64,000 nt of DNA from an uncultured Allomuricauda sp. (GCF_947499585.1 NZ_CANMOO010000003.1:248001-312000), one strand, 5' to 3'; positions 5,565 to 29,026 are shown, counted from the stretch's first letter. Numbers and translations are program-made. The notes: a model not told the origin generated them from the sequence alone.

Positions 5565-5598
5565 AGAGCTTTAGTTCTATTGTACTATTTAATGGGGT

Positions 5599-7598: not shown

Positions 7599-7631
7599 TT
7601 CTGTTTCTTTAGTTTGCGCTAAGATAATGAT

Positions 7632-8852: not shown

Positions 8853-8869
8853 GAAAATTAAAATTGAAT

Positions 8870-8935
8870 TGTCAGTTCGAGCGCAGTCGAGAATTATTTA
8901 TGCCTTATGTGTTCTCGACTGCGCTCGAACTGACA
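8870..8935. repeat. Long perfect inverted repeat (24-bp arms, 18-base loop) between hmgA and fahA
   Basis: The arms at 8870-8893 and 8912-8935 are perfect reverse complements over 24 bases; the core is TTCGAGCGCAGTCGAGAA and its complement. The loop is 18 bases. It lies inside the operon, between the hmgA start side (8949) and the fahA start (8852), and would fold into a very stable hairpin in the transcript. GC content is far above its surroundings. It resembles a dispersed REP-like palindrome; from memory, similar sequences recur in flavobacterial genomes, but this was not checked. Confidence 0.93.
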
Positions 8936-8948
8936 TAAGGCCATCTAT

Positions 8949-10106: not shown

Positions 10107-10121
10107 AACTGAAAGTTTTAA

Positions 10122-11255
10122 TTAGTGCAAAGTTCCTCTAAGTTCCTGTTCTCTCTCAATAGCTTCAAACAGTGCTTTAAAGTTACCTTTTCCAAATGAT
10201 TGTGCGCCTTTTCTTTGAATGATTTCAAAAAACATGGTTGGTCTTGGCTCTACAGGGCGGGTAAAGATTTGCAATAAATAGCCTTCGTCATCACGATCAA
10301 CCAGAATACCCAGTTCTTTTAAAGGAGCAATATCTTCATCAATTTCACCTACACGGTCCAGGACGGCATCATAATAAGTGTCAGGTACTTTTAGAAACTC
10401 AACACCTCTGCTTTTAAGTTGCCTCACTGTCGAGATAACGTCATCAGTGGAAACTGCTATATGTTGCACACCTTCACCTTCATAAAAATCAAGGTATTCT
10501 TCTACTTGTGATTTTTTCTTGCCGGCTGCGGGTTCGTTTATTGGGAATTTAATACGCCCGTTACCATTACTCATCACTTTACTCATAAGGGCGGTGAAAT
10601 CGGTAGAGATATCTTTATCATCAAAAGACAGTATTTGAGTGAAACCCATAACATTTTCATAGAAGTTCACCCACTCGTTCATTCTATTCCATCCAACATT
10701 GCCTACCATGTGATCTACAAACTTTAACCCAACAGGAGATGGATTGTAATCTGGAGTTTCCCATTTTCTGAACCCGGGCATAAAAGTGCCGTTATAATCT
10801 TTTCTTTCTACAAAAATATGTACGGTCTCGCCATAGGTATAAATACCAGAGCGAACAATTTTTCCTGTTTTATCTTCTTCAACTTTAGGTTCCATGTAGG
10901 ATTTTGCACCTCGCTCCATAGCCGTGTTGTATGCATAGGTCGCATCATCTACCCACAGTGCCACAACTTTAACACCATCACCATGTTGATCAATATGGCG
11001 ACCAATGTCCGTACCACTTTTTAATGGAGAGGTCAGTACAAGTCTTATTTTGTCTTGAACGACCACATAACTTTCCCTATCTTTTAAGCTAGTTTCCAAT
11101 CCTGCATAAGCTAAAGATTGAAACCCAAAAGCAGTCTTATAAAAGTGCGCCGCTTGCTTTGAATTGCTTACATAAAGTTCTAAATAATCGGTGCCATTTA
11201 TAGGCATAAAATCTTTTGCCGTATCATGCAATTTTGGTAAAGTGGAAGTGGACAT
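10122..11255 (-). CDS. hppD: 4-Hydroxyphenylpyruvate dioxygenase
   Basis: HppD makes homogentisate from 4-hydroxyphenylpyruvate. The 377-residue protein contains two vicinal-oxygen-chelate halves. The three iron ligands are visible as the His in VDHMVGNVGWN, the His in VQHIAVSTDDV and the Glu in PTMFFEIIQRKG. It is the first gene of the catabolic operon and faces a divergent MarR gene across 152 bases that hold candidate operators. Length and motifs are typical. Confidence 0.96.
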   Translation of the reverse strand: MSTSTLPKLHDTAKDFMPINGTDYLELYVSNSKQAAHFYKTAFGFQSLAYAGLETSLKDRESYVVVQDKIRLVLTSPLKSGTDIGRHIDQHGDGVKVVALWVDDATYAYNTAMERGAKSYMEPKVEEDKTGKIVRSGIYTYGETVHIFVERKDYNGTFMPGFRKWETPDYNPSPVGLKFVDHMVGNVGWNRMNEWVNFYENVMGFTQILSFDDKDISTDFTALMSKVMSNGNGRIKFPINEPAAGKKKSQVEEYLDFYEGEGVQHIAVSTDDVISTVRQLKSRGVEFLKVPDTYYDAVLDRVGEIDEDIAPLKELGILVDRDDEGYLLQIFTRPVEPRPTMFFEIIQRKGAQSFGKGNFKALFEAIEREQELRGTLH

Positions 11256-11290
11256 AACAAATATATTTTAAGATGTAATTGAAATTATTG

Positions 11291-11327
11291 TTGTTGATGC
11301 AACAAAAATAGTAATTTTGAAATTACT
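11291..11327. promoter_or_regulatory. Divergent hppD / marR promoter region with two palindromes (candidate MarR operators)
   Basis: An 18-base palindrome AGTAATTTTGAAATTACT (8-bp arms, 2-base centre) lies at 11310-11327, and a second one, TTGTTGATGCAACAA (6-bp arms, 3-base centre), at 11291-11305. The first contains a plus-strand -7 box TAATTTTG (11312-11319) suited to the marR gene, with TTG at 11291-11293 as possible -33. A minus-strand -7-like box TATTTTTG (11303-11310) suited to hppD abuts it. MarR dimers bind palindromes of this size, so repression of both genes from this site is a reasonable inference. Confidence 0.6.
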
Positions 11328-11365
11328 TTAGTGTTATTCAGGGCAAATAATTGTTAAAAACAACG

Positions 11366-11393
11366 ATCATTTCGAACGGAGTGGGGAAATGAT
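11366..11393. repeat. Small inverted repeat upstream of marR
   Basis: ATCATTTC (11366-11373) and GAAATGAT (11386-11393) form 8-bp perfect arms around a 12-base loop, ending 14 bases before the marR start. It would lie in the marR leader. It may be a short dispersed repeat rather than a regulatory site; there is only one copy in the window. Confidence 0.5.
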
Positions 11394-11407
11394 AAAGAAG
11401 GTGATAT

Positions 11408-11854
11408 ATGCTTCATCAAATAGACGAAATATCAGGTATTGGATTGCATTTGGATTTAGTATTACGAAAAGTGCAGGATGCTTATCTTAGAAAGTTTAAG
11501 GAATTGGGTGTTGAGCTCACAATTGAACAATGGGTAATCCTCTATCGTATTTATCAGTTAGGAGAAGATGTATCTCAATCTGATATTGTAAAGTCCAATT
11601 TTAGAAACAGAGCCACTACCTCTAGGGTTATTGGTGGTCTTGAACGAAAAGGTTGGATTACCAAGACTCGTTTTGAAGGTGATTTAAAACGATTTAAATT
11701 AGAATTAACCCAAATAGGCCAAGATATTATCGCCAAAGTTGAGCCCTATGCCCATGTTTTAAGAAAACAGGCTATAAAAGGCCTGGATAATGATGAGTTT
11801 GAAACTTTTTTAAAGGTTTTGGATAAGATTGGGGATAATTATGAAAATTTCTGA
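11408..11854 (+). CDS. MarR-family transcriptional regulator
   Basis: The 148-residue protein is a winged-helix MarR regulator. Features are the dimerisation helix at the N-terminus, LTIEQWVILYRIYQ, the recognition-helix region SNFRNRATTSRVIGGLERKGWI, and the wing GDLKRFKLELTQIG. It is divergent from hppD with two palindromes between them, so it most likely controls the tyrosine catabolism operon and itself, possibly in response to an aromatic intermediate. The ligand is unknown. Confidence 0.9.
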   Translation: MLHQIDEISGIGLHLDLVLRKVQDAYLRKFKELGVELTIEQWVILYRIYQLGEDVSQSDIVKSNFRNRATTSRVIGGLERKGWITKTRFEGDLKRFKLELTQIGQDIIAKVEPYAHVLRKQAIKGLDNDEFETFLKVLDKIGDNYENF

Positions 11855-11994
11855 TTCTTATCAGACGCTAGGTTTTTTAATTCCCAAAAGGGAATAGTAG
11901 GGATAAGATAGCATAGAAATTGGAAAAACATGTTGTTTTGAAACGATATTAATTGGTTGAATTTTGCTTAGTATTAATTGAAAAATATTTCAAT

Positions 11995-12159
11995 ATGAAA
12001 AAGTTAAAGCATTACCCAAATGTTTGGCAAGCTTCACCGTTTTCAATGGAAATGTTCGCGCATTTTGAGCAGGACGCGCGTCTTAGGAATCATGAAGCAG
12101 AAATAGAACAACAAAAAACTAAAAAGGAAAGTAAATTTAAATTGGCTTTTGGCTGGTAA
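11995..12159 (+). CDS. Small conserved hypothetical protein (54 aa)
   Basis: The ATG at 11995 gives a 54-residue basic and charged protein beginning MKKLKHYPNVWQASPFSMEM and ending FKLAFGW. The frame is open further upstream to 11953, but that extension has no codon bias or motif worth keeping. A strong terminator follows 24 bases after the stop, which supports a real transcript. I do not recognise a function. Confidence 0.6.
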   Translation: MKKLKHYPNVWQASPFSMEMFAHFEQDARLRNHEAEIEQQKTKKESKFKLAFGW

Positions 12160-12182
12160 ACAAAAACGAACAGTATTGTAAG

Positions 12183-12207
12183 AAAAGGCACCCATTGGGT
12201 GCCTTTT
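12183..12207. terminator. Bidirectional rho-independent terminator
   Basis: An 11-bp perfect stem (AAAAGGCACCC, loop ATT, GGGTGCCTTTT) sits between the small plus-strand gene and the convergent esterase gene. Its A-rich and T-rich flanks allow termination in both directions. Confidence 0.85.
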
Positions 12208-12242
12208 CAGATTTTAGTTTGTCTCTAACCAGCTCTTATGGA

Positions 12243-13064
12243 TTATTTTCTTCTAAAAAAATCGTCGAAGAAAACCAGCTGATACTTCAAAGAATTTGCC
12301 CAGTACTCATAATTGTGCCCGCCAGGTCTTTCAATATAATCATGGGGTATATTTCTTAGGACAAGTTTTTCATGCAATCTTCTGTTGACTTCAAAAAAGA
12401 AATCATCATAACCACAATCAATTATAATTTCCAAATTTCCATTTAGTAGATGAACCATATTCATCACGGTATTGTCCTCCCAGTTTTGTTTGTTTTCAGC
12501 ATATGTTCCCAATCGTTGGGATATGTCCCAACCATTTGGGAATGGCCTGATGTCAACTCCTCCGCTCATGCTCCCTGCAGCTCCCCAGACATCTTGGTGT
12601 TTAAAAGCAAGATACAGTGCACCATGCCCGCCCATGCTTAGCCCCGTTATGGCTCGACCTTTGTTTTCAGGGATAGTGGGGTATTTTTTATCGATGGCTG
12701 ATACTAATTCCTTAGAAACATAAGTCTCATATTTCATTTTAGAATCAATTGGGCTGTCAAAATACCAACTTGTACTGCCTCCATCCGGGCATACAATGAT
12801 CATATTAAATTTATCTGCGTATGCTTTTACTTCTGGCACATAAGATGCCCAACCTGCATAATCTCCTCCAGCACCATGCAATAAATACAAAACAGGGAAC
12901 TTCTCATTTTGATTTGCATAGCCATCAGGAGTAATAACAATATTGGGAATATTTTTGCTCATGGATTTGCTGAAGACCATGATGGTATCTATCTGTGAAG
13001 TTATGAGGTTTATGCTAAACCAATTGATCAACAGAAACGCTATGAAATATTTTGATTTTGACAT
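12243..13064 (-). CDS. Secreted alpha/beta-hydrolase esterase (esterase D / feruloyl esterase-like)
   Basis: The 273-residue protein has an N-terminal signal peptide (FIAFLLINWFSINLITSQ) and an alpha/beta-hydrolase fold: PVLYLLHGAGGDYAGW oxyanion-loop region, nucleophile elbow GLSMGG, an Asp in IIDCGYDD, and a final catalytic His in RPGGHNYEYW. Family members hydrolyse acyl esters (feruloyl esterases, S-formylglutathione hydrolase, mycolyltransferase relatives). The signal peptide suggests an extracytoplasmic carbohydrate ester or xenobiotic ester substrate, but which one cannot be told. It lies 28 bases downstream of polA on the same strand. Confidence 0.88.
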   Translation of the reverse strand: MSKSKYFIAFLLINWFSINLITSQIDTIMVFSKSMSKNIPNIVITPDGYANQNEKFPVLYLLHGAGGDYAGWASYVPEVKAYADKFNMIIVCPDGGSTSWYFDSPIDSKMKYETYVSKELVSAIDKKYPTIPENKGRAITGLSMGGHGALYLAFKHQDVWGAAGSMSGGVDIRPFPNGWDISQRLGTYAENKQNWEDNTVMNMVHLLNGNLEIIIDCGYDDFFFEVNRRLHEKLVLRNIPHDYIERPGGHNYEYWANSLKYQLVFFDDFFRRK

Positions 13065-13092
13065 GTTTGTGATTGTATTATCTGTGAAAATA

Positions 13093-15927
13093 TTAATGTG
13101 CCTCTAACCAATTATCGCCAACCCCGACTTCTACATCCAATGGGACGGAAAGTATGTAAGCATTTTCCATTTCAGTTTTAATTAGACTTTTTACATCTTC
13201 TAATTCTGGTTTGTACGCATCAAAGACCAATTCATCATGTACCTGAAGTAACATTTTGGTTTTGTAGTTACCTTCAGTTAATTTCTTATGGATATTGATC
13301 ATGGCAATTTTAATGATGTCCGCTGCACTTCCTTGGATGGGCGCATTTACTGCATTTCGCTCTGCAGCCCCTCGTACTACGGCATTACCAGCATTGATAT
13401 CTTTTAAATACCTACGCCTACCCAATACGGTTTGTACGTAGCCATTGTCGCGCGCAAAATCTACTTGGTCACCCATGTAATTTCGTAGTTTGGGATAGGT
13501 TTTATAATAGGTCTCTATCAGTTCTTTGGATTCGGCACGTGTTAAGTCCGTTTGATTGCTCAACCCAAAAGCGGAAACGCCATAAATGATTCCAAAGTTT
13601 ACTGTTTTAGCATTGCCGCGTTGCTCTCTTGTTACTTCTTCAATAGGTACATTAAACACCCTAGAAGCAGTAGAAGCATGAATGTCTTCCCCATTTTTAA
13701 AAGCTTCTATCATGGTATCCTCTTCACTTAAGGCAGCAATAATTCTAAGTTCTATTTGTGAATAATCAGCTGCTAAGAGGGTATAGTTTTCATCTCTTGG
13801 AATAAACGCTTTACGTACTTGCCTGCCTCGTTCTGTACGGATAGGAATGTTTTGAAGGTTAGGATTGTTACTACTAAGTCTGCCAGTAGCTGCAACAGTC
13901 TGCATGTAATCTGTGTGTACCCTACCACTATGTTGTTGTACCTCATTAGGTAGCGCATCAACATAGGTACTTTTTAACTTGGCGAGTCCACGGTAATCCA
14001 ACACATTTTGAATTATTTCATGATCTTTTGCTAAATAGGAAAGTACATCTTCTGCAGTGGAATATTGCCCTGTTTTGGTCTTTTTCGGCTTGTCTACCAA
14101 TTTTAGCTTATCAAACAAAATTTCACCTAACTGTTTCGGCGATGCTATATTAAATTCTTGACCTGCGGCTTCATAAATTTTGGCTTCCAGACTTTTGATA
14201 TCGTTGTTTAAATCCTCAGAAAGGGAGTTCAAGAAATCCTTGTTTAGATTAATGCCTTCTGTTTCCATATCAGCTAAAACACGTAGTAAGGGAACTTCAA
14301 TCTCTTCAAATAGCTTTTGGGTCTTGGCTTCCACCAATTCTGGCCTAAAATGATGTGCCAATTGTAATGTAATGTCAGCATCTTCTGAGGCATATTCTGT
14401 CTGTTTTTCTAAAGGAACTTGCCGCATGCTCAATTGGTTTTTCCCCTTTTTACCAATAAGTTCTGTTATGGAAACTGGAGTATAGTTGAGGTACGTCTCG
14501 GCCAGCACATCCATATTGTGTCGCATATCGGGATTTATCAGATAATGCGCCAACATGGTATCGAACAGTTTTCCCTTTACTTCTACACCATAGTTTTTCA
14601 TCACCTTGATATCGTATTTCAAGTTCTGGCCAATTTTTTCAATTGCCTCAGATTCAAAGAAAGGACGAAGCTGTTCCAAAATTTCTTGAGCTGCTTCTTT
14701 ATCTTCAGTAATGGGTACATAAAAGCCTTTTTTCGCCTCCCAACTAAAAGCAATTCCTACCAATTCAGCTTCTAATGGATTAATGGAGGTGGTTTCGGTA
14801 TCAAAACAAACCGATGTCTGTTTCATTAATTTATCTACAAAAAGCTTCATTCCCAACCCAGGAGTTATGCCTTGATAAAGATGTGCAACGTTGGTCACTG
14901 TATTTCTGCTGCTCTCATCTTTTATAGTGGCAGGTGCATCTACCGGGTTTCCTCCAAACAGACTAAATTGACCACTACCAGCTACCTGTGCCTGTTCTGT
15001 AGCTTTAGGAGTATTCGAAGTAGGGCTTGCCTCAACAGTTTCTTCAGAGAAAATTTTAATAAACTGGTCTTTTAATCTTCTAAATTCCAGTTCTTCAAAA
15101 ATCTGCTGGACTTTGGGGCTATCAGGTTCAGACATTTTGTAGTCTTCAGCATTGAAAGTAACTTCGCAATTTAGATTGATTTCTGCCAGTTTTCTGGACA
15201 ACCTGCCCAGTTCCGCATTTTCCTCCACCTTCTCCTTCATTTTGCCTTTTAGCTTATCGGTGTTGGCCAAAAGTCCCTCCATGTCTCCAAAATCTGCTAT
15301 AAACTTTTTAGCAGTTTTATCTCCTACTCCTGGAAGTCCAGGAATATTATCACTGGCGTCACCCATCATGCCTAGATAGTCGATTACCTGTTCTGGGCGT
15401 TCTACGCCAAATCTTTTTTGAACCTCGGGAATTCCCCAAATTTCTATACCATTGCCCATACGTGCCGGACGATACATGAAAATGTTTTCGGAGACCAATT
15501 GTCCAAAATCTTTATCTGGGGTTACCATAAAAACCTTGTAATCTTCCTTTTCCGCTTGTTTGGCCAAGGTGCCAATAATATCATCTGCCTCAAAGCCTTC
15601 CAATTCTACAACGGGAATGTGCATTGCCTTTAAAATATCTTGGATAAATGGTACTGCAATACGAATGGCATCTGGCGTTTCATCACGATTGGCCTTGTAG
15701 TCTTCAAAAAGTTCTGTTCGCTCTACACTTCCTCCTTTATCAAAACAAACCGCTAAATGATCAGGCTTTTCTCGTTTTATCACATCAAAAAGAGAATTTA
15801 CAAAACCCATAATGGCTGAAGTATCCATTCCTTTGGAATTGATTCTTGGATTTTTGATCAAAGCATAATAACCTCTAAAAATTAAGGCGTAAGCATCAAG
15901 AAGAAAGAGTCTTTTTTGTTCGGACAT
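13093..15927 (-). CDS. polA: DNA polymerase I
   Basis: The 944-residue three-domain enzyme is used in repair and Okazaki fragment processing. Residues 1 to about 290 are the 5'-3' exonuclease (LLDAYALIFRGYYAL, GFEADDIIGTLA, GDASDNIPGLPGVGDKTA). A Gln/Ser/Ala-rich linker follows at about 300-345. The 3'-5' proofreading domain retains its acidic motif (VCFDTETTSINP, near residue 375). The polymerase domain has LLAADYSQIELRII, VNFGIIYGVSAFGLS and LQVHDELVFDA. All three active sites look intact. Confidence 0.98.
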   Translation of the reverse strand: MSEQKRLFLLDAYALIFRGYYALIKNPRINSKGMDTSAIMGFVNSLFDVIKREKPDHLAVCFDKGGSVERTELFEDYKANRDETPDAIRIAVPFIQDILKAMHIPVVELEGFEADDIIGTLAKQAEKEDYKVFMVTPDKDFGQLVSENIFMYRPARMGNGIEIWGIPEVQKRFGVERPEQVIDYLGMMGDASDNIPGLPGVGDKTAKKFIADFGDMEGLLANTDKLKGKMKEKVEENAELGRLSRKLAEINLNCEVTFNAEDYKMSEPDSPKVQQIFEELEFRRLKDQFIKIFSEETVEASPTSNTPKATEQAQVAGSGQFSLFGGNPVDAPATIKDESSRNTVTNVAHLYQGITPGLGMKLFVDKLMKQTSVCFDTETTSINPLEAELVGIAFSWEAKKGFYVPITEDKEAAQEILEQLRPFFESEAIEKIGQNLKYDIKVMKNYGVEVKGKLFDTMLAHYLINPDMRHNMDVLAETYLNYTPVSITELIGKKGKNQLSMRQVPLEKQTEYASEDADITLQLAHHFRPELVEAKTQKLFEEIEVPLLRVLADMETEGINLNKDFLNSLSEDLNNDIKSLEAKIYEAAGQEFNIASPKQLGEILFDKLKLVDKPKKTKTGQYSTAEDVLSYLAKDHEIIQNVLDYRGLAKLKSTYVDALPNEVQQHSGRVHTDYMQTVAATGRLSSNNPNLQNIPIRTERGRQVRKAFIPRDENYTLLAADYSQIELRIIAALSEEDTMIEAFKNGEDIHASTASRVFNVPIEEVTREQRGNAKTVNFGIIYGVSAFGLSNQTDLTRAESKELIETYYKTYPKLRNYMGDQVDFARDNGYVQTVLGRRRYLKDINAGNAVVRGAAERNAVNAPIQGSAADIIKIAMINIHKKLTEGNYKTKMLLQVHDELVFDAYKPELEDVKSLIKTEMENAYILSVPLDVEVGVGDNWLEAH

Positions 15928-16041
15928 GTTTTTATTTGTCAGTTTAACGTTAGAAGTTGACAGATTTTAAAAGTAGAAAAAAGAGTCTAGAAATTAGCGC
16001 AAAAATTCAAGAAGTCTTTTGTCTTTTATAATGAAGTGAAG

Positions 16042-17034
16042 CTATTTTTTATAAAAACTCTCCACGGGCTGATTCTCGTGACCGTCTTGGGTATATTCTC
16101 TATAAGTGAACCCAGGGTGCACACAGTAACCTCCAGTTTCACCTTGTTTGTTAATGGCCAAAAAGCCTATTTGGAAATCTTCACGACCCTCATTCTTTTT
16201 CATGATTCGCTTTACACCTTCTTCACAAGCTTCTTGGGGGCTTTTGCCTTGGCGCATTAATTCTACAATTAAAAAGCTGCCTACGGTTCTAATGACTTCT
16301 TCACCAACTCCTGTTGCGGTAGCACCGCCCACTTCATTGTCCACATAAAGTCCCGCACCAATAATAGGGGAGTCCCCTACGCGTCCCGCAACCTTATAGG
16401 CCATGCCACTAGTGGTACAAGCACCGGCAATATCACCATTTGAGTCAATGGCAAGCATGCCAATGGTATCATGATTTTCAATATTGATAACGGTCTCGTA
16501 TTTAGATTCCTTTTTCCATTCCTCGTATTGTTTTCTGGTACTTTCCGTCAATAAATCTGTTTTCTTAAATCCTTTTTCATAAGCAAATTGCTCTGCTCCT
16601 TTTCCAGCTAGTATTATATGTGGAGTATCTTCCATAACCTTACGGGCCACGGATATGGGGTGTGCTATGTTTTGAAGATAAACTACAGACCCACAATTAC
16701 CGTCTTTATCCATAATGCAGGCATCCAGCGTTACATTTCCTTCTCTATCTGGTCTGCCACCCACACCAACGGTTTCATTGGTTACATCTGCTTCTTCCAC
16801 CATAACACCTTGCTCAACGGCATCCAATGCATTTCCCCCTTTTTCAAGAACTTCCCAAGCTTTTGCTGTTGCGTTCATAAAGTTCCATGTACAGATAGCA
16901 ACGGGTTTTTTGACTACTATTGTTACTGGAACATTTTCAGGTTTATTCTCAGTTTTGCACGATGCGAGAATTGGGGCGGACAATAAGCCGGCAGTAGTAA
17001 GGCTTGATTTTTTGAGAAACTTACGTCTTTGCAT
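16042..17034 (-). CDS. N4-(beta-N-acetylglucosaminyl)-L-asparaginase (glycosylasparaginase), lipoprotein-like
   Basis: This Ntn-hydrolase family enzyme cleaves the GlcNAc-Asn bond. I start it at the ATG at 17034 (330 residues), because this gives a proper leader MQRRKFLKKSSLTTAGLLSA and a lipobox-like LASC with Cys26. The frame continues upstream to 17358 but overlaps the divergent cutC and lacks a plausible protein. The autocatalytic nucleophile is Thr200 in ENHDTIGMLAID, with the second half (VGDSPIIGAGLYVDNEVGGATATG) also conserved. It is divergent from cutC across 39 bases. The substrate is inferred from the family. Confidence 0.9.
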   Translation of the reverse strand: MQRRKFLKKSSLTTAGLLSAPILASCKTENKPENVPVTIVVKKPVAICTWNFMNATAKAWEVLEKGGNALDAVEQGVMVEEADVTNETVGVGGRPDREGNVTLDACIMDKDGNCGSVVYLQNIAHPISVARKVMEDTPHIILAGKGAEQFAYEKGFKKTDLLTESTRKQYEEWKKESKYETVINIENHDTIGMLAIDSNGDIAGACTTSGMAYKVAGRVGDSPIIGAGLYVDNEVGGATATGVGEEVIRTVGSFLIVELMRQGKSPQEACEEGVKRIMKKNEGREDFQIGFLAINKQGETGGYCVHPGFTYREYTQDGHENQPVESFYKK

Positions 17035-17073
17035 GATTTGGATGTTTATTTTAGTCCTGATAAATATAGCAAT

Positions 17074-17796
17074 ATGCTTATAGAAGTTTGTGCCAATTCT
17101 TTGGAATCTGCTCTTAATGCACAAGAGGCCGGGGCTGATAGAATTGAACTTTGTTCCGAACTTGGAGTGGGCGGGATTACACCATCGCATGGATTGATTC
17201 AATTGGTAAAAGAGCAACTGGATATCCCCATTCATGTCTTGATTAGGCCACGGAGTGGGCATTTCACTTATTCTGAACAAGAATTTGAAGTAATGAAAAA
17301 GGATATTGCTTTTTGTGTTGAAATGCGGGTTGATGGTATTGTTTCTGGTATGCTTCATTCAAACTTTAGTTTGAATCTTGAAATAACTAAACAGTTGATT
17401 GAGCTCTCAAAACCATTAAAATTTACGTTTCATCGTGCTTTTGATTGGGTTTCTAATCCTAAGGAGACCTTTATACATTTAGAAGAACTTGGGGTGGATT
17501 ATGTTTTGACTTCAGGCGGTGAAACTTCGGCAGAAAGAGGACTGGATTTACTTTCAAAACTCAATGCTATTTCAAAACAATGCACCATTATGGCAGGTGG
17601 GGGAATAAAAATTGATAATGCAACAAAATTTAAAAACGCGAAGCTAAAAGCCATTCATCTTTCTGGATCTTCCTTTGGCAATATGATAAATGTGAACAAA
17701 AAAATCCCAATGAATTCTGAGGCTCATTTGAAAGAGGGCCAAGTAGCTGTAACAAACATGGAGACTATTCGTCAAATTGTGCGGAGCGTTAAATAA
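17074..17796 (+). CDS. cutC: CutC family protein (copper homeostasis)
   Basis: The ATG at 17074 gives a 240-residue TIM-barrel protein starting MLIEVCANSLESALNAQEAG, followed by ADRIELCSELGVGGITPS, HVLIRPRSGHFTYS, FHRAFDW and TSGGETSAERGL. These are the CutC signatures. An upstream start at 17029 is open but would add an unconserved 15 residues. The link of this family to copper is historical and its biochemical role is unclear. The metallophosphoesterase gene follows after 54 bases and is probably co-transcribed. Confidence 0.92.
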   Translation: MLIEVCANSLESALNAQEAGADRIELCSELGVGGITPSHGLIQLVKEQLDIPIHVLIRPRSGHFTYSEQEFEVMKKDIAFCVEMRVDGIVSGMLHSNFSLNLEITKQLIELSKPLKFTFHRAFDWVSNPKETFIHLEELGVDYVLTSGGETSAERGLDLLSKLNAISKQCTIMAGGGIKIDNATKFKNAKLKAIHLSGSSFGNMINVNKKIPMNSEAHLKEGQVAVTNMETIRQIVRSVK

Positions 17797-17850
17797 TCGT
17801 CAAATAATTATGTTCCTGAACTAAAGAAATATCTTTACAAAAAAACAGCT

Positions 17851-19077
17851 ATGCTTCGTTGGGTCATTTTCGTTATTATCTATTTGGTTTTAGGCTTTTA
17901 TTCTTTACAAGCCATAAAAACCGCCTCTAGATACCCATGGGTACATTACCTTTTTATATTACTTTCTCTTTTTGTTATTGGAAATTTCCTATATCAGTTT
18001 ACAGGTACAGATGGAGGAAGGGTTCTTAGCAGACCAAAAAGCTATGCTTTCGGGCTTTTATTGGCCATGCTCTCTTTTCAGATAATCACCATTATATTTC
18101 TTTTTGGCGAAGATATTTTTAGGCTGTTTGTTGGGATTTATCAAAAAGTATTTAGCACTCAAAAAGAGTTCAGTATTCCTTCAAGAAGACGCTTTTTAAG
18201 TATCATTGCCCTTGGAGTGGCAGCCCTGCCTTTTGGGGCTTTGTTGATGGGCATGTACAAGGGTAAGTACAATTACAAAGTGTTAAAATATCAATTGGAA
18301 TTTGATGATCTTCCAGATGCTTTTGATGGCTATCAAATCACCCAAATTTCAGATGTACACAGCGGTAGTTTTGATAATAGAAAGGAAGTAACTTACGGGG
18401 TTGATTTAATCAACAAACAACAGAGTGATGTGATATTGTTTACAGGTGATATGGTGAACAATAAAGCTGAAGAGATGTTGCCTTGGAGTGATTTGTTTGC
18501 TACGCTGAAAGCAAAAGATGGGGTGTATTCTGTTTTGGGAAATCACGATTATGGAGATTATGTTAGTTGGGAATCTGAAACTTTAAAGGCACAAAATTTA
18601 CAGGATTTAAAAAACATTCAGAAAGAGATGGGCTTTGACTTGTTGTTGGATTCGCATCGATATTTGGAAAGGAATGGCGAAAAGATTGCTCTCATGGGTG
18701 TAGAAAATTGGGGTCGAGGAGGATTTAAAAAAGCGGGAGATTTAGAGAAGGCCAAACAAGGGGTATCTAAAGAGGATTTCAAAATTTTGATGAGTCATGA
18801 TCCTTCCCATTGGGAAGATGTGGTTATTAATGATGATTACCATTTTCATTTAACATTGAGCGGCCACACCCACGGAATGCAGTTTGGAGTGGAAATTCCT
18901 GGCTGGATAAAATGGAGTCCGGTAAAATGGCGCTATAAATATTGGGCAGGTGTTTACCAAGAGCTTGGACAGTTTATAAATGTAAACCGAGGCTTTGGTT
19001 TTATAGGTTATCCAGGACGGGTGGGGATATGGCCCGAGATTTCTGTGATTACACTTAAAAAGAAAGGTTTAACTTGA
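17851..19077 (+). CDS. Membrane-anchored metallophosphoesterase
   Basis: The 408-residue protein has about four N-terminal membrane helices in residues 1-135, then a calcineurin-like phosphoesterase domain. Metal-binding motifs are DVH (168-170), GD (199-200), GNHD (230-233) and GHTHG (338-342). It resembles the YkuE/YaeI type of membrane-linked phosphoesterase, some of which act on lipid phosphates. The substrate here is unknown. It follows cutC closely. Confidence 0.92.
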   Translation: MLRWVIFVIIYLVLGFYSLQAIKTASRYPWVHYLFILLSLFVIGNFLYQFTGTDGGRVLSRPKSYAFGLLLAMLSFQIITIIFLFGEDIFRLFVGIYQKVFSTQKEFSIPSRRRFLSIIALGVAALPFGALLMGMYKGKYNYKVLKYQLEFDDLPDAFDGYQITQISDVHSGSFDNRKEVTYGVDLINKQQSDVILFTGDMVNNKAEEMLPWSDLFATLKAKDGVYSVLGNHDYGDYVSWESETLKAQNLQDLKNIQKEMGFDLLLDSHRYLERNGEKIALMGVENWGRGGFKKAGDLEKAKQGVSKEDFKILMSHDPSHWEDVVINDDYHFHLTLSGHTHGMQFGVEIPGWIKWSPVKWRYKYWAGVYQELGQFINVNRGFGFIGYPGRVGIWPEISVITLKKKGLT

Positions 19078-22988: not shown

Positions 22989-23060
22989 TGGCCTATGGTG
23001 TAATTGGTAACACAGCTGGTTTTGGTCCAGTCGTTCAAGGTTCGAGTCCTTGTAGGCCAA
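22989..23060 (+). tRNA. tRNA-Gln (anticodon TTG)
   Basis: The 72-base gene has a 7-bp acceptor stem TGGCCTA / TAGGCCA with discriminator A, an anticodon arm CTGG-TTTTGGT-CCAG that gives the anticodon TTG, and the T-arm GGTTCGAGTCC. No CCA is encoded. Its 3' end and the following terminator are repeated at 27316-27365, which marks it as a likely integration target. Confidence 0.97.
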
Positions 23061-23098
23061 CAAAATGACCTCCTAAATGTGATAGTTTAGGAGGTTTT
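23049..23098. repeat. Direct repeat, left copy (tRNA-Gln 3' end plus terminator; attL-like)
   Basis: This is the copy belonging to the intact tRNA. It pairs with 27316-27365 at a constant offset of 4,267 bases and includes the exact 13-base core TAGGCCAACAAAA. Confidence 0.7.
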
Positions 23099-23100
23099 TT
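23068..23100 (+). terminator. Terminator of tRNA-Gln
   Basis: A 10-bp stem ACCTCCTAAA / TTTAGGAGGT (23068-23077 and 23086-23095), an 8-base loop and a run of six T (23095-23100) follow the tRNA by 7 bases. Confidence 0.85.
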
Positions 23101-23112
23101 ATTTTTAATTCC

Positions 23113-23576
23113 CCTTAAAGTAATGGAAGTGTTTATAATAATAGTTGGGTATAGGTAACCAAGAGCTGCAATTAGTCTTCCTTGGTCTTCGATTGTTGCC
23201 AATCGTATGTATTTCCCTCTATCTGCCTCTAGAAGTAATCGTTGATTTTGGGTCATTACTTCTACATCTGCATTTGGCAAATTTAAAGAGGAAGAAGTAA
23301 CAACAGGTTTAATACCTAGTCTTTCAGCATCAAGGCCTAATTTGCCTGTTAGATTGTGCGGGTAACTGTAACTTTTTTCAATTTGGCTTCAATAGTGAAT
23401 AAACCCAAAGAATCAATAATTGTTGATTTCTTAGAATTTAGGTTAACAATTAATATATTGGAAACATCATTTTTAAAGCTTTTAGCTCTGCCATTTATCA
23501 GCGTTGTGTTGTCTTGATTAAATCCGGTAAATGAGGCCAAAGCAATTAATACTAGCAGTAAAAACCTTAAATGATT
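23113..23576 (-). pseudogene. Broken carboxypeptidase-regulatory-like domain protein
   Basis: Two reading frames on the minus strand carry parts of one protein. The first (from about 23576) reads as a signal peptide (LRFLLLVLIALASF), then INGRAKSFKNDVSNILIVNL and DSLGLFTIEAKLK, the start of a CarboxypepD_reg-like domain. It ends at a stop soon after VTVT. The second frame continues with PHNLTGKLGLDAERLGIKPV through ADRGKYIRLATIEDQGR. A one-base frameshift joins them, about 40 codons of the domain seem missing between, no start codon precedes the signal peptide, and the 3' end runs into the tRNA terminator. The gene is not functional. Confidence 0.72.
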
Positions 23577-23632
23577 CTACAATATTTATATTTTAGAATT
23601 TTAAGATCAAATACTTTTTTAAAATAAGAGAT

Positions 23633-23765
23633 AACGGCTCCGTATATGAAAAGTAGCGCTAAAAAAAGCTTTAACTTTTCGGATGATACAAAAGCCAAAT
23701 TTCCAAAAAAAAACCAATCCATTGTGTTAGCAACGACTTGCGCTATTTTTTATATACAATGTAAG
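23633..23765 (-). repeat. attC-like imperfect palindrome A (after the NTF2-like gene)
   Basis: On the plus strand CGGCTCCGTATATGAAAAG-TAGCGCT at one end faces GCGCTATTTTTTATATACAA at the other, forming an imperfect inverted repeat with mismatches and unequal arm length. It lies between the NTF2-like gene's stop and the pseudogene. The outer ends are degenerate compared with site D. Confidence 0.45.
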
Positions 23766-23798
23766 CAGCAGTTATTTTTTGCTTTCACAATATATTCA

Positions 23799-24170
23799 TC
23801 ATGCTGTTTTTTTACTCAGATTTTCAGTTAGCAAAATCCATTTCCCATTTTCATTAATTAGAACTATGGTTCCAATTCCGTTTCCTTTTGTAAGATTTTT
23901 ATTGATTATTCCTTGCCAATAGAATTCAAATGCAAAAGCAGCTATAGATTCATTTTTAAGAACCCATCGTACGTTTTGTATTGAATATTCTTCGCTCTTA
24001 ATCATTGAAAAATTGTTTTCAAAGGCAATTCTAACTTTTGATTTTCCCATATGAATTGCTCCATTAGAAAAAGTAACACAGGCATTATCATGAAATAGTG
24101 GGTCAACATTTTTCCAATCTTGGGTTTTTAAGGCAGCTTCATATTCTTTTATAAAATCTTCTGGTCTCAT
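23799..24170 (-). CDS. NTF2-like / SnoaL-fold small protein
   Basis: The 123-residue protein has the pattern of the DUF4440/SnoaL group of the NTF2 superfamily: N-terminal helix FIKEYEAALKTQDWKNVDPL, FHDNACVTFSNGAIHMGKSK, and a beta-rich second half ending GTIVLINENGKWILL. No signal peptide or catalytic motif is evident. It is the last gene of the cassette-like group and stands alone between two palindromes. The function is unknown; such folds serve as small-molecule isomerases, hydrolases or binding proteins. Confidence 0.75.
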   Translation of the reverse strand: MRPEDFIKEYEAALKTQDWKNVDPLFHDNACVTFSNGAIHMGKSKVRIAFENNFSMIKSEEYSIQNVRWVLKNESIAAFAFEFYWQGIINKNLTKGNGIGTIVLINENGKWILLTENLSKKTA

Positions 24171-24179
24171 TTACTATTA

Positions 24180-24330
24180 TGTTCGATTAAGCACTTAGCC
24201 AAAACTTTTTATTTTGTTTTATCTTTTTTGTTATAAAGCCAAATCAAAAAGATTTGGCGTACTTGGTTAAAGCCCTAAACTTTGGGTTAAGTACCCAGGC
24301 CCGTATTAATTATAGCCATTGTTAGGTGCT
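24180..24330 (-). repeat. attC-like palindrome B (after the 171-aa membrane protein gene)
   Basis: Reading the minus strand, the site starts shortly after the gene's stop with ACCTAAC, which fits the integron R'' consensus RYYYAAC, followed by AATGGCTATAATTAATACGG. An internal 8-bp hairpin GCCAAATC/GATTTGGC (24238-24245, 24251-24258) and GTACTT/AAGTAC arms form further structure. The far end is poorly matched, so the site may be decayed or mosaic. Confidence 0.5.
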
Positions 24331-24334
24331 GGTT

Positions 24335-24850
24335 TTATAGCTCAGACTCTTTTAAATCTTTAGCTAAACTTGCGATTTTTAATTTTTTATTTCGTTTTAT
24401 ATATTTTAAATCAGCTGAATTGTCAATCATTAACTGACGGTTATAATAATTTATATGTTCAAGAATTGCGAAAAAATTGGATAAGATTCCGTACAAAATC
24501 AAGTTTTCGGGAATTATTCCCCAGTCATTTTGATACAATTGAATTGCAAATATTATTGGAATCAGAGCAATTAGTATCAGATTTATTTTTTTGGAATTCC
24601 TGAAAAGATTTAAGTTTTTTTCTTGATTAAAAGGCTTTTCCATCAATCTATATAACTTTAACTTCCAATAGTGTTGACCTTGAACTAGTATTATTATACA
24701 AACTAAAACTCCATACAACAGAAAAAATATATCTATAAATAAGTTATTAAGGAATAGATAAACTAATATCGCTGGGAAAGTCACAAAAGCGTGAAATCTT
24801 TCCATAGGATAGTAACTCTTTAATCTTTTAATCAGTTTTTGTTTGCTCAT
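24335..24850 (-). CDS. Hypothetical membrane protein (171 aa)
   Basis: The protein has two hydrophobic helices near residues 22-55, a charged loop, and two more near residues 90-130, with basic ends (SKQKLIKRLKSYY at the start, KYIKRNKKLKIASLAKDLKE at the end). A four-helix inner-membrane topology is likely. I do not recognise a named family or active-site residues. It is a stand-alone gene flanked by attC-like palindromes B and C. Confidence 0.7.
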   Translation of the reverse strand: MSKQKLIKRLKSYYPMERFHAFVTFPAILVYLFLNNLFIDIFFLLYGVLVCIIILVQGQHYWKLKLYRLMEKPFNQEKNLNLFRNSKKINLILIALIPIIFAIQLYQNDWGIIPENLILYGILSNFFAILEHINYYNRQLMIDNSADLKYIKRNKKLKIASLAKDLKESEL

Positions 24851-24861
24851 ATTTATTTGCG

Positions 24862-25157
24862 GCTTGAAGCTAACGACCTGCTAAACGCAGTTCGATGATT
24901 TCTACGGAAATATAATAAAATCGATTAACTATGAAATCGGAATTAGACTTCCTATGTCTCTGATTTTATAGTTTGTCAAGAAGACCGCGCAGCGGTTGTA
25001 TCTTGGAGATTTTATGTTATTGGGAGTATAAATTATCGGGCCAAATTGCTTTTAGCCGCTGTTGGCGCACCTCACGGATTTTTTTATTTTCCGAGAGCTT
25101 GGTTTCCCCTCGATGGGCAGTTAAAGATGCAAAGAACTAGACACGATGTTAGGCATA
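24862..25157 (-). repeat. attC-like spacer C (after the DJ-1/PfpI gene), possibly two fused sites
   Basis: On the minus strand the spacer opens 8 bases after the stop with GCCTAAC, an exact RYYYAAC core (25148-25154), and closes near GTCGTTAGCT just before the next gene. An internal CGCCAACAGCGGC element could be the start of a second site. At about 300 bases it is long for one attC, so two adjacent sites or an empty cassette are possible. No gene was found in it. Confidence 0.45.
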
Positions 25158-25161
25158 GTAC

Positions 25162-25917
25162 TTATTCTTTCCAATTTTGAAGTCGGTCGATGTACAAATA
25201 ACTTTCAACAAATTTTCTGTGTTCTGAACTGGTCATTTTTTCAAGTAAATTAAGAGCAGAAATATAGCTCGTCAAGTTTCCATTAGAGGAACTGAATTTT
25301 CCATCTTCAACAAATGTTACTAAACTGTCATTTTGAACTTTTAAATTTGGGTAATCTTTTTGGAGCTGTTTTCCCCCGCCAATATAGGTGACGATTTTAT
25401 GTCCGTCTGCAATTCCAGACTCGCCAATAAGCTGTGCTCCAGCACAATTGCTCACAATGTATTTAGTTTCTTCGTTTTTCTTTTTAATAAAATCTATCAT
25501 TTTTTCATTGCGGACTTGTGCGTACATATCATAGCCACTAGGAATAAATAGCGCTGTTAACTTTGGACAATTTTCAAATGTATAATCAGGAACAAAACGC
25601 ATGCCTTCCTCGGTTGTGATTGGTTTTTCCGTTTCCGCTATGGTGATCACATTAAAAAGTTGCTCAAAATTTTGATTAGGTTTTCCAAAAACATCTGATG
25701 TTGCGATAACCTCACCTTGTAGGACACCATTAAACATAAGAAGGCCTATTGTTGGCAATTCAGTTTTGTACGGTTTCAAGTGTTTTGTTAATGTGTCAGA
25801 TGGTGATTCTACTTGATTGGTATGCTCTGTTTTGAGCTTAGCTTTTGATTTCTCATTATTACAGCTAATAAAAATAGTTGCAAAAAATAGTGTTGAAATC
25901 ATCAATACATTTTTCAT
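25162..25917 (-). CDS. DJ-1/PfpI family lipoprotein
   Basis: The 251-residue protein has a lipoprotein leader with a lipobox ending at Cys19 (FFATIFISC). The DJ-1/PfpI (class I glutamine amidotransferase-like) domain runs from about residue 55, with the nucleophile elbow YIVSNCAGAQLIGESG (Cys158). Family members act as proteases, glyoxalases, hydratases or regulators. With an export signal and no fused HTH domain, an envelope role is likely here. It is a single gene between palindromes C and D. Confidence 0.82.
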   Translation of the reverse strand: MKNVLMISTLFFATIFISCNNEKSKAKLKTEHTNQVESPSDTLTKHLKPYKTELPTIGLLMFNGVLQGEVIATSDVFGKPNQNFEQLFNVITIAETEKPITTEEGMRFVPDYTFENCPKLTALFIPSGYDMYAQVRNEKMIDFIKKKNEETKYIVSNCAGAQLIGESGIADGHKIVTYIGGGKQLQKDYPNLKVQNDSLVTFVEDGKFSSSNGNLTSYISALNLLEKMTSSEHRKFVESYLYIDRLQNWKE

Positions 25918-26100
25918 ATTCTTGTTTTTAATATTGACAAGTCAATTATAATATAATTTGAACTCGCCTTTTGTTTAAAAAGTAGGACAAGGTACTTATG
26001 AGAAATCTGATAAAAATTAAGCTGGTTTAAGAAGATTTTTTTAACCCCATTTAAATATTCATGGGTTAAACCAAGAAAACTTGCTAAAAGATATTGTGCT

Positions 26101-26233
26101 CTAACGGTCTCGGCTATGATTTCGTTGTGGAATCATCCGCAGGATTATTCCGCCGAAATCCAGCCGTTTGATTTATACTTTTATTTTGGTGTGGCACAAA
26201 ACCACAATGAATTATAGCCATTGTTGTGGTTAG
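26101..26233 (-). repeat. attC-like imperfect palindrome D (best example; after the HMA-CDF transporter gene)
   Basis: The 133-base element begins CTAACGG and ends TGTGGTTAG. Inner arms GGCTATGATTTCGTTGTGG (26112-26130) and CCACAATGAATTATAGCC (26202-26219) pair along their length, but one arm is 19 bases and the other 18, leaving unpaired bases. Asymmetric bulges are a hallmark of integron attC hairpins. The element starts 12 bases beyond the stop of the upstream gene, as an attC would. Confidence 0.62.
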
Positions 26234-26244
26234 TTTTTTTTTAT

Positions 26245-27039
26245 TTATTTACTCAATTTTAAAATTCTAAATGCTCCTTGAATTACCAAAGCAAAAACGA
26301 TTGTTCCGATAATCAAATCAGGTTTATTTGAACTTAACCAATTTACCAAAATTCCTGCGATTATTACTCCCAAATTGATAATCACGTCATTTGAAGTGAA
26401 AATCATACTCGCTTTCATATGAGCCTCTTCTTTGCTTTTTGACTGTTGTAAAATGTAAAGGCAAATTCCGTTTGCAACAAGTGCAAAAATCGAAACAATA
26501 ATCATTGTTGAAAAATCAGGAAGATTCTCGTCTCCAAAAAATCTCCTTAAAACTTCCACAAATCCAATAATCGCAAGTGTTATTTGAAAATATCCAGCAA
26601 GTTTTGCAATCCGTTTTTTTCTTGTCAGAGTTCCGCCAACCGCAAAAAGACTGATTCCATAAACGAAACTGTCGGCAAGCATATCCAAACTGTCGGCAAC
26701 TAACCCCATTGATTTTGAGATTATTCCAGTTGTCATTTCGATTAGGAAAAATGCAAAGTTAATTCCGAGTACAGTCCAGAGTAGTTTTTTCTGGTTTGCG
26801 TTTTCTTTAAATTCAGTTTGGTCGGTTTTTTCGGTCGAGATTTTCTTTCCACCTAAATTAAGTTCAAGAACTGACTTTTCAATTTGGTCGATTTGTCCGC
26901 TGTGAAAAACAGTCAGTTTTCGGTTCGGAATGTCAAAGTCCAAATTTGCAATACTTGAGATTCCGTCCAATTTCATTCGGATTAGATTTTCCTCAGAAGG
27001 ACAGTCCATTTTGGTAATCTCAAATATCGTTTTGTTCAT
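26245..27039 (-). CDS. Cation transporter: degenerate HMA domain fused to CDF-like membrane domain
   Basis: Residues 1 to about 75 resemble a heavy-metal-associated domain, but its metal loop is MDCPSEE with one cysteine instead of CxxC. Residues about 85-262 form about six membrane helices of the cation diffusion facilitator type, with the acidic helix-2 site DSLDMLADS. In helix 5 the usual HxxxD is replaced by FTSND, and the cytosolic CDF C-terminal domain is absent. The likely role is divalent metal (Zn/Cd/Co-like) efflux, with altered metal choice. TTGTGG upstream and CCACAA downstream bracket the gene, as expected for one cassette. Confidence 0.8.
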   Translation of the reverse strand: MNKTIFEITKMDCPSEENLIRMKLDGISSIANLDFDIPNRKLTVFHSGQIDQIEKSVLELNLGGKKISTEKTDQTEFKENANQKKLLWTVLGINFAFFLIEMTTGIISKSMGLVADSLDMLADSFVYGISLFAVGGTLTRKKRIAKLAGYFQITLAIIGFVEVLRRFFGDENLPDFSTMIIVSIFALVANGICLYILQQSKSKEEAHMKASMIFTSNDVIINLGVIIAGILVNWLSSNKPDLIIGTIVFALVIQGAFRILKLSK

Positions 27040-27315
27040 TCACTTTTTCGTTTTTTGGACATTAACCACAACTTGTTTATATAGATGTAAAATACATCGT
27101 TATACGCCCAAATCCAATATGTAATCGATTATAAATACATTTCTTATATGCAATCTCGCTATTATTTAAAAAGGTTGATTGGATAAAGCACAGCGTAAGG
27201 AAACAAATTTAATATCTTTATTAAAGTTGCCCGTCCTTCGTTAAATTACAGACAGCTTAATGATATATAGACCTGACCATAACTGTGGTGATATCCAAAA
27301 TAAAGATGTAATCAA

Positions 27316-27365
27316 CTTATAGGCCAACAAAAAAACCTCCCAAACAAACTTGTCTAAGAGGTTTT
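27316..27365. repeat. Direct repeat, right copy (tRNA-Gln 3' remnant plus terminator; attR-like)
   Basis: CTTATAGGCCAACAAAA followed by a CCTC...GAGG hairpin repeats the tail of tRNA-Gln and its terminator, with no tRNA body upstream. The remnant supports an integration or recombination event at the tRNA. Confidence 0.65.
27333..27364. terminator. Terminator downstream of the S41 peptidase gene
   Basis: AAACCTC (27333-27339) and GAGGTTT (27358-27364) form the base of a hairpin, with T runs on both exits. It lies 22 bases past the stop of the minus-strand peptidase gene and is homologous to the tRNA-Gln terminator. Confidence 0.65.
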
Positions 27366-27385
27366 ATTTATTGACAGTGTAGGGG

Positions 27386-29026
27386 TTACCTAACCTCCTT
27401 AAGCATATCTTTGGCACTTTTACCAATTGCTCCTTTGGAGTCCATGGCAATAACTTTTTCCAGTAATTTAATAGTTTTATCCTTGGCACCTGCTTTAAAA
27501 TAAGCATCTGCTAAGTTTTTTATGGCGCTAGGGGAATTAGGGAATAATTGTGCTACAAACGAGTATACGCCAATAGCGGGTTCAATTTGGTTATTGCTTA
27601 ATAAATGATATGCGGTATTGCTCAATTCTGTTTCAAAATCAAAGAAACTATAGCGCGGGTCTTTAACCATTTTTGGTACCTCTATGGCCAGTTCTTCCAT
27701 TTTTCCGGCCATATATAAATCGGTGATATAACGCATGGGGTCGGGCTGAAAACCTGTTCCTGAAAAAGTCAAGGCAGCATCTAGAACAGGGTCTTCATTA
27801 GATCTGTATTGCTCAAAACTCATATTAACAGCTATATTAGGTACGGTGGCATCGGCATTTTCCCAGACCGGCTTATCTTGCCACCAAGCATATGATAAGT
27901 AAACGGGAATCTTACTGTTGGGCAAAGCCACAGGGCGTGCATCACCATAAAAATTTATATTTTCTGAAGTTGGCTCCCCAACAAAGGTGGCATTGGTGTA
28001 ATTATCCAGTTCGTTTACCAGATTCTGACAGGCAGAAAAGGTGCGTCTACCAGTGATGACAAATAATTTTCCTTTCTGGTTGATTTTCTTGGTTTCAATA
28101 ATACCAGTTACAACCGTCTTGTTTTTGTAGTTGTTTCCACCGCCATTTAAACGAACATCCAATATCAGTTTTTCAACCTCATTGTTTTCAATAAAATCAA
28201 AAACACGAGCATAAAAAGAGGGTGTGTCTTCTTTGGGGTCATCCTGTATTTGGCTGTGTCTTACATAGACCGTTTTTTCTTCTGGCAGATATTCAAAGAA
28301 ATAGATCTTATCTAAGTTTTTCAGGTATAAAGGCGTATTGGTTTGATCTCTTGCTTCGAGCCAATTCTCATCTTGAAAAATATGACTGTACTTTCTAGGC
28401 ATTCTTTCTCCCTTTGGTAGGGCATTGAACTCCTGTTCAAAGGTTTTGCCATCTTTCTCCAGGGTAAGCTTGACCGAGTTTTGTAGTGTAGTAGTAATTC
28501 CTTGTGCATGCAAAACTTCTAACATGCCCAAGTAATTAATTCCAAAGGCCTTGAAATACTGATTGTTTTCCGAGTTCACTGCTGGGTATATTAGTTCCAA
28601 AGCCTTATCAATTGGTATTTTGTTTATTTCCAAAACTTTGGCCCCAAGTGCTTTGGCGTAGTCTTTATGAACACCTTGCAGGTAAATGCCATCGTTGTAT
28701 TCGTAAAGATTAAAGGGCAGGTAATGAAATTCAAAAGGTTTTTGTCTAAAGCTAATGTCTGTATGGCCATATTTAAACAAGGAAATTATTCTGGACATTC
28801 CAACGATAATCTCATGCTCCTGTAAGTTTGGAATATTCTTATAAAGGGTTTCTACTTCGGAATTAAAAACCGCTTTAGTGGTTTTAACAAATAGAAAAGA
28901 ATAGTCTTCATTTATGGTGTTTTGTAAAAATCGAAGGTCTTCTTGCCATTGGGTTGTGGTCAAATTCTCTTGAGCGGATAAGCTCAAAAAGAAGATCAAG
29001 TTTAGGGAGAGGAGTAATTTTTTCAT
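27386..29026 (-). CDS. S41 family peptidase with C-terminal TPR-like segment
   Basis: The 546-residue exported protein has a signal peptide (KLLLSLNLIFFLSLSAQ). The tail-specific protease core includes KLILDVRLNGGGNNY and the serine motif TGRRTFSACQNLVNEL. After the protease domain, residues about 470-545 read as one or two tetratricopeptide-like helices (NQIEPAIGVYSFVAQLFPNS, ADAYFKAGAKDKTIKLLEKV). The protein lacks an obvious PDZ domain. A periplasmic role on unknown substrates is likely. It stands alone. Confidence 0.88.
   Translation of the reverse strand: MKKLLLSLNLIFFLSLSAQENLTTTQWQEDLRFLQNTINEDYSFLFVKTTKAVFNSEVETLYKNIPNLQEHEIIVGMSRIISLFKYGHTDISFRQKPFEFHYLPFNLYEYNDGIYLQGVHKDYAKALGAKVLEINKIPIDKALELIYPAVNSENNQYFKAFGINYLGMLEVLHAQGITTTLQNSVKLTLEKDGKTFEQEFNALPKGERMPRKYSHIFQDENWLEARDQTNTPLYLKNLDKIYFFEYLPEEKTVYVRHSQIQDDPKEDTPSFYARVFDFIENNEVEKLILDVRLNGGGNNYKNKTVVTGIIETKKINQKGKLFVITGRRTFSACQNLVNELDNYTNATFVGEPTSENINFYGDARPVALPNSKIPVYLSYAWWQDKPVWENADATVPNIAVNMSFEQYRSNEDPVLDAALTFSGTGFQPDPMRYITDLYMAGKMEELAIEVPKMVKDPRYSFFDFETELSNTAYHLLSNNQIEPAIGVYSFVAQLFPNSPSAIKNLADAYFKAGAKDKTIKLLEKVIAMDSKGAIGKSAKDMLKEVR

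Follow-up and report, generated by a model that had tools for sequence, protein, structure and literature searches.

Integrons are gene-collecting devices that swap ready-made gene cassettes, and the described systems closest to the locus studied here are the integrons that depend on IntI (class 1 integrons and the Vibrio superintegrons) and the site clusters without a nearby integrase gene, known as CALIN. Integrons are described as rare in Bacteroidetes, from which only In0 and one Salinibacter integron were reported (PMC9024848). IntegronFinder identifies IntI through an IntI-specific domain (PMC9668308), and an integrase such as the one described below would therefore be missed. Single-strand attC recombination is held to have become possible through the innovation of the I2 helix of IntI (PMC7790495), an idea that becomes directly testable with a large clade that has attC-like sites and no I2 segment. 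Such a clade also points to an overlooked gene-exchange route across Bacteroidota, defence genes included.

Here we analyse a 64,000-nucleotide stretch of DNA from an uncultured Allomuricauda sp. (hereafter the window), which, with a probability of roughly 0.9, we read as containing an integron array in decay that lacks an integrase and belongs to a type spread across Bacteroidia. Like the IntI integrons, this type follows a circular-cassette logic with R and L boxes, unpaired spacers and an extrahelical base, has its crossover in a GTT box and its first cassette at an attI beside the integrase, shows signs of bottom-strand folding and carries diverse accessory genes, including defence genes. 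Unlike them, it has a recombinase that lacks the IntI-specific segment and branches as a clade apart, a gene for this recombinase on the same strand as the cassettes, a cassette-end stem of 10-14 bp in which a C.A mismatch is fixed, and an attI whose usual form is a palindrome that stops 5-7 bp short of the crossover. The window resembles a CALIN in having a site cluster, with at least two full sites, and no nearby integrase gene; it differs in that the integrase beside related arrays is not IntI and in keeping an attI-like element. Since the integrase lacks the marks of IntI, we class the system, from its sequences, as an integron variant that stands outside the IntI integrons. The full texts searched held no published description of it; preprints and most subscription journals lay outside that search, so a publication may exist.

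Results and Discussion

Genes and sites of the array

The array occupies the minus strand from 27072 to 23633 and comprises an attI-like start, one pristine cassette, a second full site and two decayed half-sites, its four genes sitting between a tRNA-Gln gene (22989-23061, plus strand, ARAGORN) and an S41 peptidase gene (27386-29026). A first-pass annotation had described four unrelated genes on one strand, and ORF calls and Pfam bear this out: in the order of the array, they encode a CDF family cation-efflux transporter of 264 aa, the gene of cassette 1 (26245-27039; PF01545, E 1.1e-17), a DJ-1/PfpI-family protein of 251 aa (25162-25917; PF01965), a 171-aa product without a Pfam family (24335-24850) and a SnoaL/DUF4440-like protein of 123 aa (23799-24170; PF13474, PF14534). 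The palindrome claimed behind each gene holds in part, with full sites at 26099-26230 and 23629-23768 and remnants at the other two places; the overall claim of an integron-like, CALIN-like array without an integrase stands, though two of the four sites are complete. An Rfam search of the window returned the tRNA and otherwise sub-threshold noise.

The intact attC-like site of cassette 1 (26099-26230, minus strand) reads R'' CCACAAC, L'' GGCTAT, L' ATAGCC, spacer GAGACC and R' GTTAGAG, and the second full site (23629-23768, minus strand) reads R'' CTGCTTAC, L'' GTATAT, L' ATATAC and R' GTTATCT. In the latter, R'' has CTTAC instead of YAAC, and for this reason the site may be dead. The first-pass annotation had proposed as checks a covariance match to at least two sites and a folding test. 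With R2, a covariance model made in this analysis, the two sites score 101 bits (E 2.9e-23, full window searched) and 61 bits (E 3.9e-13), E-values that are not independent by themselves, because both sites were used in training; independent support comes from the close blastn relatives of the first site in its own genome (several, mostly at gene ends), from matches of the models to non-training sites elsewhere and from the cassette tests described below. Folded as single-stranded DNA, the first site is far more stable than its shuffles (z -4.15, with 0 of 200 as good).

The remaining sites of the minus strand are decayed, scoring 9-11 bits with the covariance model. Half-site fragments lie in 24865-25155, among them a degenerate 5' half-site at 25130-25154 (GCCTAACATCGTGTCTAGTTC, by eye like AACAACGTGTATAATTC of intact sites), which has no full covariance match, and a weak remnant at 24868-25068 that ends in GTTAGC (11.3 bits, filters off). 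The remnant at 24182-24335 is a truncated attC of a long type (R'' ACCTAAC, L'' GGCTAT) that keeps its 5' two thirds and has lost the 3' arm; a stretch of about 150 nt of it occurs in dozens of Flavobacteriaceae genomes, and the full-length version is present in locus L139. The PfpI gene has no matching cassette ends in the window and its homology elsewhere is bounded by the gene (matches begin near the start codon), so that on sequence grounds it is an unproven candidate cassette gene only. The 171-aa ORF has one DNA relative, with 82% identity and bounded near the unit. Between the last attC-like site and the tRNA-Gln gene (23035-23540, minus strand), broken small ORFs resemble a decayed gene.

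A family of attC-like sites

Ten sites of the window's own genome can be aligned end to end, and they share one architecture: NNNYAAC (R''), a 3-nt spacer, the L'' stem (GGCTAT, GTATAT, GTGTAT or GTATAA), a central part of variable sequence, L' carrying a single extrahelical base (top strand), a GAGACC spacer of 6 nt, and R' reading GTTR. Covariation is evident in the L stem, with 27 cells changed on both sides versus 14.3 in shuffles and a covariation score of 0.304 versus 0.126, and sliding the partner abolishes the signal. Alignment and covariation together display the make-up of an integron attC, namely RYYYAAC/GTTRRRY boxes, L''/L', unpaired spacers and the extrahelical base.

A covariance model built from the own-genome sites (R1) finds 25 candidates in that genome, including clear non-training matches (e.g. 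C1:351272 at 3.2e-10), and detects sites in 71 of 73 congeners; of 295 genomes from across the class, 94 have sites that the broader model R2 detects. The first-pass annotation would have given up its reading had no such palindromes followed other accessory genes; more than a dozen further ones occur in the same genome and hundreds in relatives. At stem position 11, a conserved C.A mismatch on the top strand (a G.T wobble on the bottom strand) is present in 35 of 42 cases, and in the inner stem A.C mismatches outnumber G.T on the top strand by 73 to 21. Both observations point indirectly to the bottom strand as the one that probably folds, as in IntI integrons.

Cassette ends and the efflux cassette

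If cassettes were once circles, the outer half of R' would derive from the next cassette, and therefore R' should match the R'' of the next site and not that of its own. In 57 consecutive pairs from arrays of the genus, the contiguous match beyond GTT averages 4.88 nt, versus 1.06 nt in shuffled pairs (maximum 1.68), and the R'/R'' match inside one site averages about 1 nt. In 25 pairs from named genomes whose sites were outside model building (Winogradskyella ursingii, Seonamhaeicola aphaedonensis, Algibacter onchidii, Zunongwangia mangrovi and others), the mean is 6.48 nt versus 1.59 nt shuffled, with a match of at least 5 nt in 24 of the 25. The matches extend for about 10 bp, and are followed by the fixed C.A mismatch (top strand) and then by A/T pairs. 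The ends match within the cassette and not within the site.

Cassette 1 is complete (26105-27071, minus strand, 967 bp): it begins with TTGTGG, its last base is the G of its own R' box, and it has homologous cassettes in other genera. The TTGTGG/CCACAA pair noticed around the transporter in the first-pass annotation is real, and represents both ends of this one cassette (GTTGTGGTTAATG and CACTAACCACAAC in homologues). Relatives of the efflux cassette region were found in 134 of 397 Flavobacteriaceae genomes, often with 85-95% DNA identity across genera, and many of the alignments begin precisely at 27072, which is exactly the crossover G (the G of GTTGTGG), with unrelated upstream flanks that are different attC or attI sequences. 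On inspection by eye of 29 loci, GTTG stood at the cassette boundary in 22 and was offset by one base in one more; in about 18 of those 23, the upstream sequence was the end of a different attC (for example, TATACGAGACC directly followed by GTTGTGG). Two variants of the cassette exist, GTTGTGGTTAATG..CACTAACCACAAC and GTTGTAAGTAATGC..GCACTACTTACAAC, in which both ends, about 850 bp apart, have changed together. In both the end statistics and this exact boundary, the box halves match within the cassette, as in gene cassettes, and judging by these matches the units would behave as excisable circular cassettes.

The attI-like element and the linked integrase

The attI-like element of the window (27066-27104, minus strand) is a degenerate palindrome, GATGTA ttt TACATC TATATAAACAA, followed by the crossover between G and TTGTGG at 27072/27071. 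Its right half is identical to the attI of integrase locus L154 (TACATCTATATAAACAA, then GTTG). The search for intI that the first-pass annotation had recommended gave a result consistent with an array lacking its integrase: by profile search, the window's genome has no IntI and no integrase above Xer level, the only candidates being XerC, XerD and three CTn-type integrases. With two full sites by model R2 and neither an IntI nor an IntI-like integrase in the whole genome, the window has the composition of a CALIN.

A tyrosine recombinase that matches the IntI profile at E 1e-28 or better, yet below the cut-off, is encoded in 161 of 299 Flavobacteriaceae genomes. R1 sites lie within about 1.5 kb of this recombinase in 12 of 30 loci, in all 12 cases downstream and on the same strand; the other 18 have no significant site in the short flanks examined, and many of them are at contig ends. 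In 80 loci from named genomes there are 40 R1 sites, and every one of them is again downstream of the recombinase, shares its strand and belongs to Bacteroidota. In nine of 11 loci the first cassette starts 15-80 bp past the integrase stop codon and matches the R'' of the first site over GTT plus 5-7 nt, a start that usually comes after a palindrome (6-12 bp arms) ending 5-7 bp before the GTT. This is the attI. The relatives have an attI beside the integrase with the first cassette there, and the window has an attI-like element without an integrase. About half of the congeners carry the integrase, and the genus includes complete integrons (e.g. L172 and L167).

In many loci, a divergent ORF of 124-134 aa without a clear Pfam family adjoins the integrase gene (L161:945-1340, L140:2408-2782, L146:933-1337, L162:656-1045 and L143:2438-2839), with a zinc-finger-like start (CPxC...CSxxC) in some members. 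Many integrase genes of the family are no more than about 0.5 kb away from a contig end (L135, L152, L153, L160, L178); the probable cause is the repetition of attC sites, at which assemblies of short reads break.

The recombinase and IntI

The array-associated recombinase is not IntI. In a tree of 82 rows, a single clade (SH-aLRT 100) unites the canonical IntI proteins, IntI1 among them, and leaves the Bacteroidota family outside; this tree does not fix the sister order of the new clade, IntI and the archaeal/alphaproteobacterial XerA-like proteins. The additional segment specific to IntI (the I2 region of the catalytic domain) is absent, with 26 residues in place of the 69 of VchIntI (PDB 2a3v), 43 fewer, and every canonical IntI protein that was extracted from this phylum has it. 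One family member scores 207 bits with the IntI profile TIGR02249, against a cut-off of 265. The Bacteroidota recombinase thus lacks both marks of IntI, the I2 segment on the one hand and the profile score with clade membership on the other. Its nearest NCBIfam entry is NF040815 ('site-specific tyrosine recombinase/integron integrase'), and an AlphaFold model (mean pLDDT 87) best matches XerA and 2a3v. It resembles the XerA/XerC-like 'simple' tyrosine recombinases (NF040815; PDB 4a8e, 5hxy), its best sequence matches, in having core and catalytic domains with intact catalytic residues; unlike them, most members of the family carry about 80-100 additional aa at the N terminus, the C terminus ends in ..NPLD/SPLD as in IntI, and cassette arrays lie behind the gene. 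The insertion was reported by Smyshlyaev et al. to be not fully conserved in their integron-like subgroup (PMC8138268), and relatives of this recombinase may therefore have been seen earlier as sequences.

In the mechanism that we propose, a tyrosine recombinase whose gene lies elsewhere or was once resident would insert circular cassettes at the attI adjoining its own gene. Each cassette would consist of one gene and one attC-like site, the site would fold as a hairpin (probably of the bottom strand), and the cut would fall in the AAC/GTT box, so that the box half past the cut would belong to the neighbouring cassette. We infer that the array-associated recombinase performs this reaction and that it would act on a folded single strand. 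That Bacteroidia have an integron lineage of their own, in which a recombinase without I2 captures cassettes through folded attC hairpins, is a reading that we somewhat favour; if true, I2 would be unneeded for folded-strand recombination, or the lineage would be a stage that predates I2, or integrons would have arisen in it independently.

The strongest competitor, to which we nevertheless assign a small probability, is that the window holds an ordinary CALIN, with cassettes of a canonical IntI system that were moved by IntI in other hosts and reached a flavobacterium. The anatomy of the sites is indeed close to attC (RYYYAAC/GTTRRRY boxes, unpaired spacers, extrahelical base), and Polaribacter phage P12002L has R1-matching sites. 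One attC of this phage was recombined into attI1 by IntI1, on the bottom strand only (PMC9892861), which hints that the site family may be able to undergo attC recombination. However, TIGR02249 exceeds its cut-off in none of the 299 Flavobacteriaceae genomes, and the arrays there follow immediately after a different tyrosine recombinase, which has an attI of its own. The R1-type sites of P12002L (locus L354: 30004-30059, 31113-31317, 32219-32284 and 32793-32928) are located between methyltransferase and hypothetical genes of this lytic phage, in the region of the CALIN published for it.

Probable insertion at tRNA-Gln

The 3' end of the tRNA-Gln gene, together with its terminator, is duplicated as a direct repeat, with copies at 23049-23105 and 27316-27372 (plus strand) that lie 4.27 kb apart, the second forming the right end of an island whose insertion target is the tRNA. 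In the closest relative (G042), 215 bp separate tRNA-Gln from the S41 gene, versus 4.3 kb in the window, and the block is absent. From the duplication and the empty site it follows that the array lies on an island that entered tRNA-Gln, or on what is left of such an island, and we infer that the array arrived in this way, its integrase having been lost or never present. It is very improbable that the locus is merely such an island with a few gene-end hairpins, its gene content explained by the island integrase: the duplication and the missing block account for the insertion of a block, but not for the attI-like start, the exact cassette boundary or the same cassette in arrays elsewhere. The island complements the cassette reading rather than replacing it.

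Dispersed palindromic repeats (MITE- or REP-like) or transcription terminators behind genes, without any movement of cassettes, would fit the position of the hairpins at the 3' ends of genes and the multi-copy nature of one long site type, but this reading is already contradicted and retains next to no weight, because neither complementarity between a unit's own ends across 0.5-2 kb in consecutive units nor exact cassette boundaries and a fixed start behind an integrase gene are expected from it.

Other arrays in the same genome

Elsewhere in the window's genome, AbiH-type and TIR-domain defence genes have attC-like sites between and around them (G000:C2:433180-436403, locus L059) and are putative cassettes. 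Additionally, behind a serine resolvase gene (Pfam Resolvase, 3.4e-41) lie about 25 small genes on the same strand (G000:C5:97645-113000; L060 local 3646-19001), most of them followed by a direct repeat of about 16 bp (AAAGTTCAAATAAAGGAT), in what looks like the cassette array of a serine recombinase. A kinship of this array with the attC-like system was considered and the two were treated apart, being in the same place with different repeats. Several of its units have an attC-like site immediately before the repeat, and three 128-bp copies (90%; L060 local 4379-4506, 10478-10605 and 15622-15749) start with the repeat of the serine array and end in an attI-like palindrome, after which GTTG cassette starts follow; the two systems seem to be nested.
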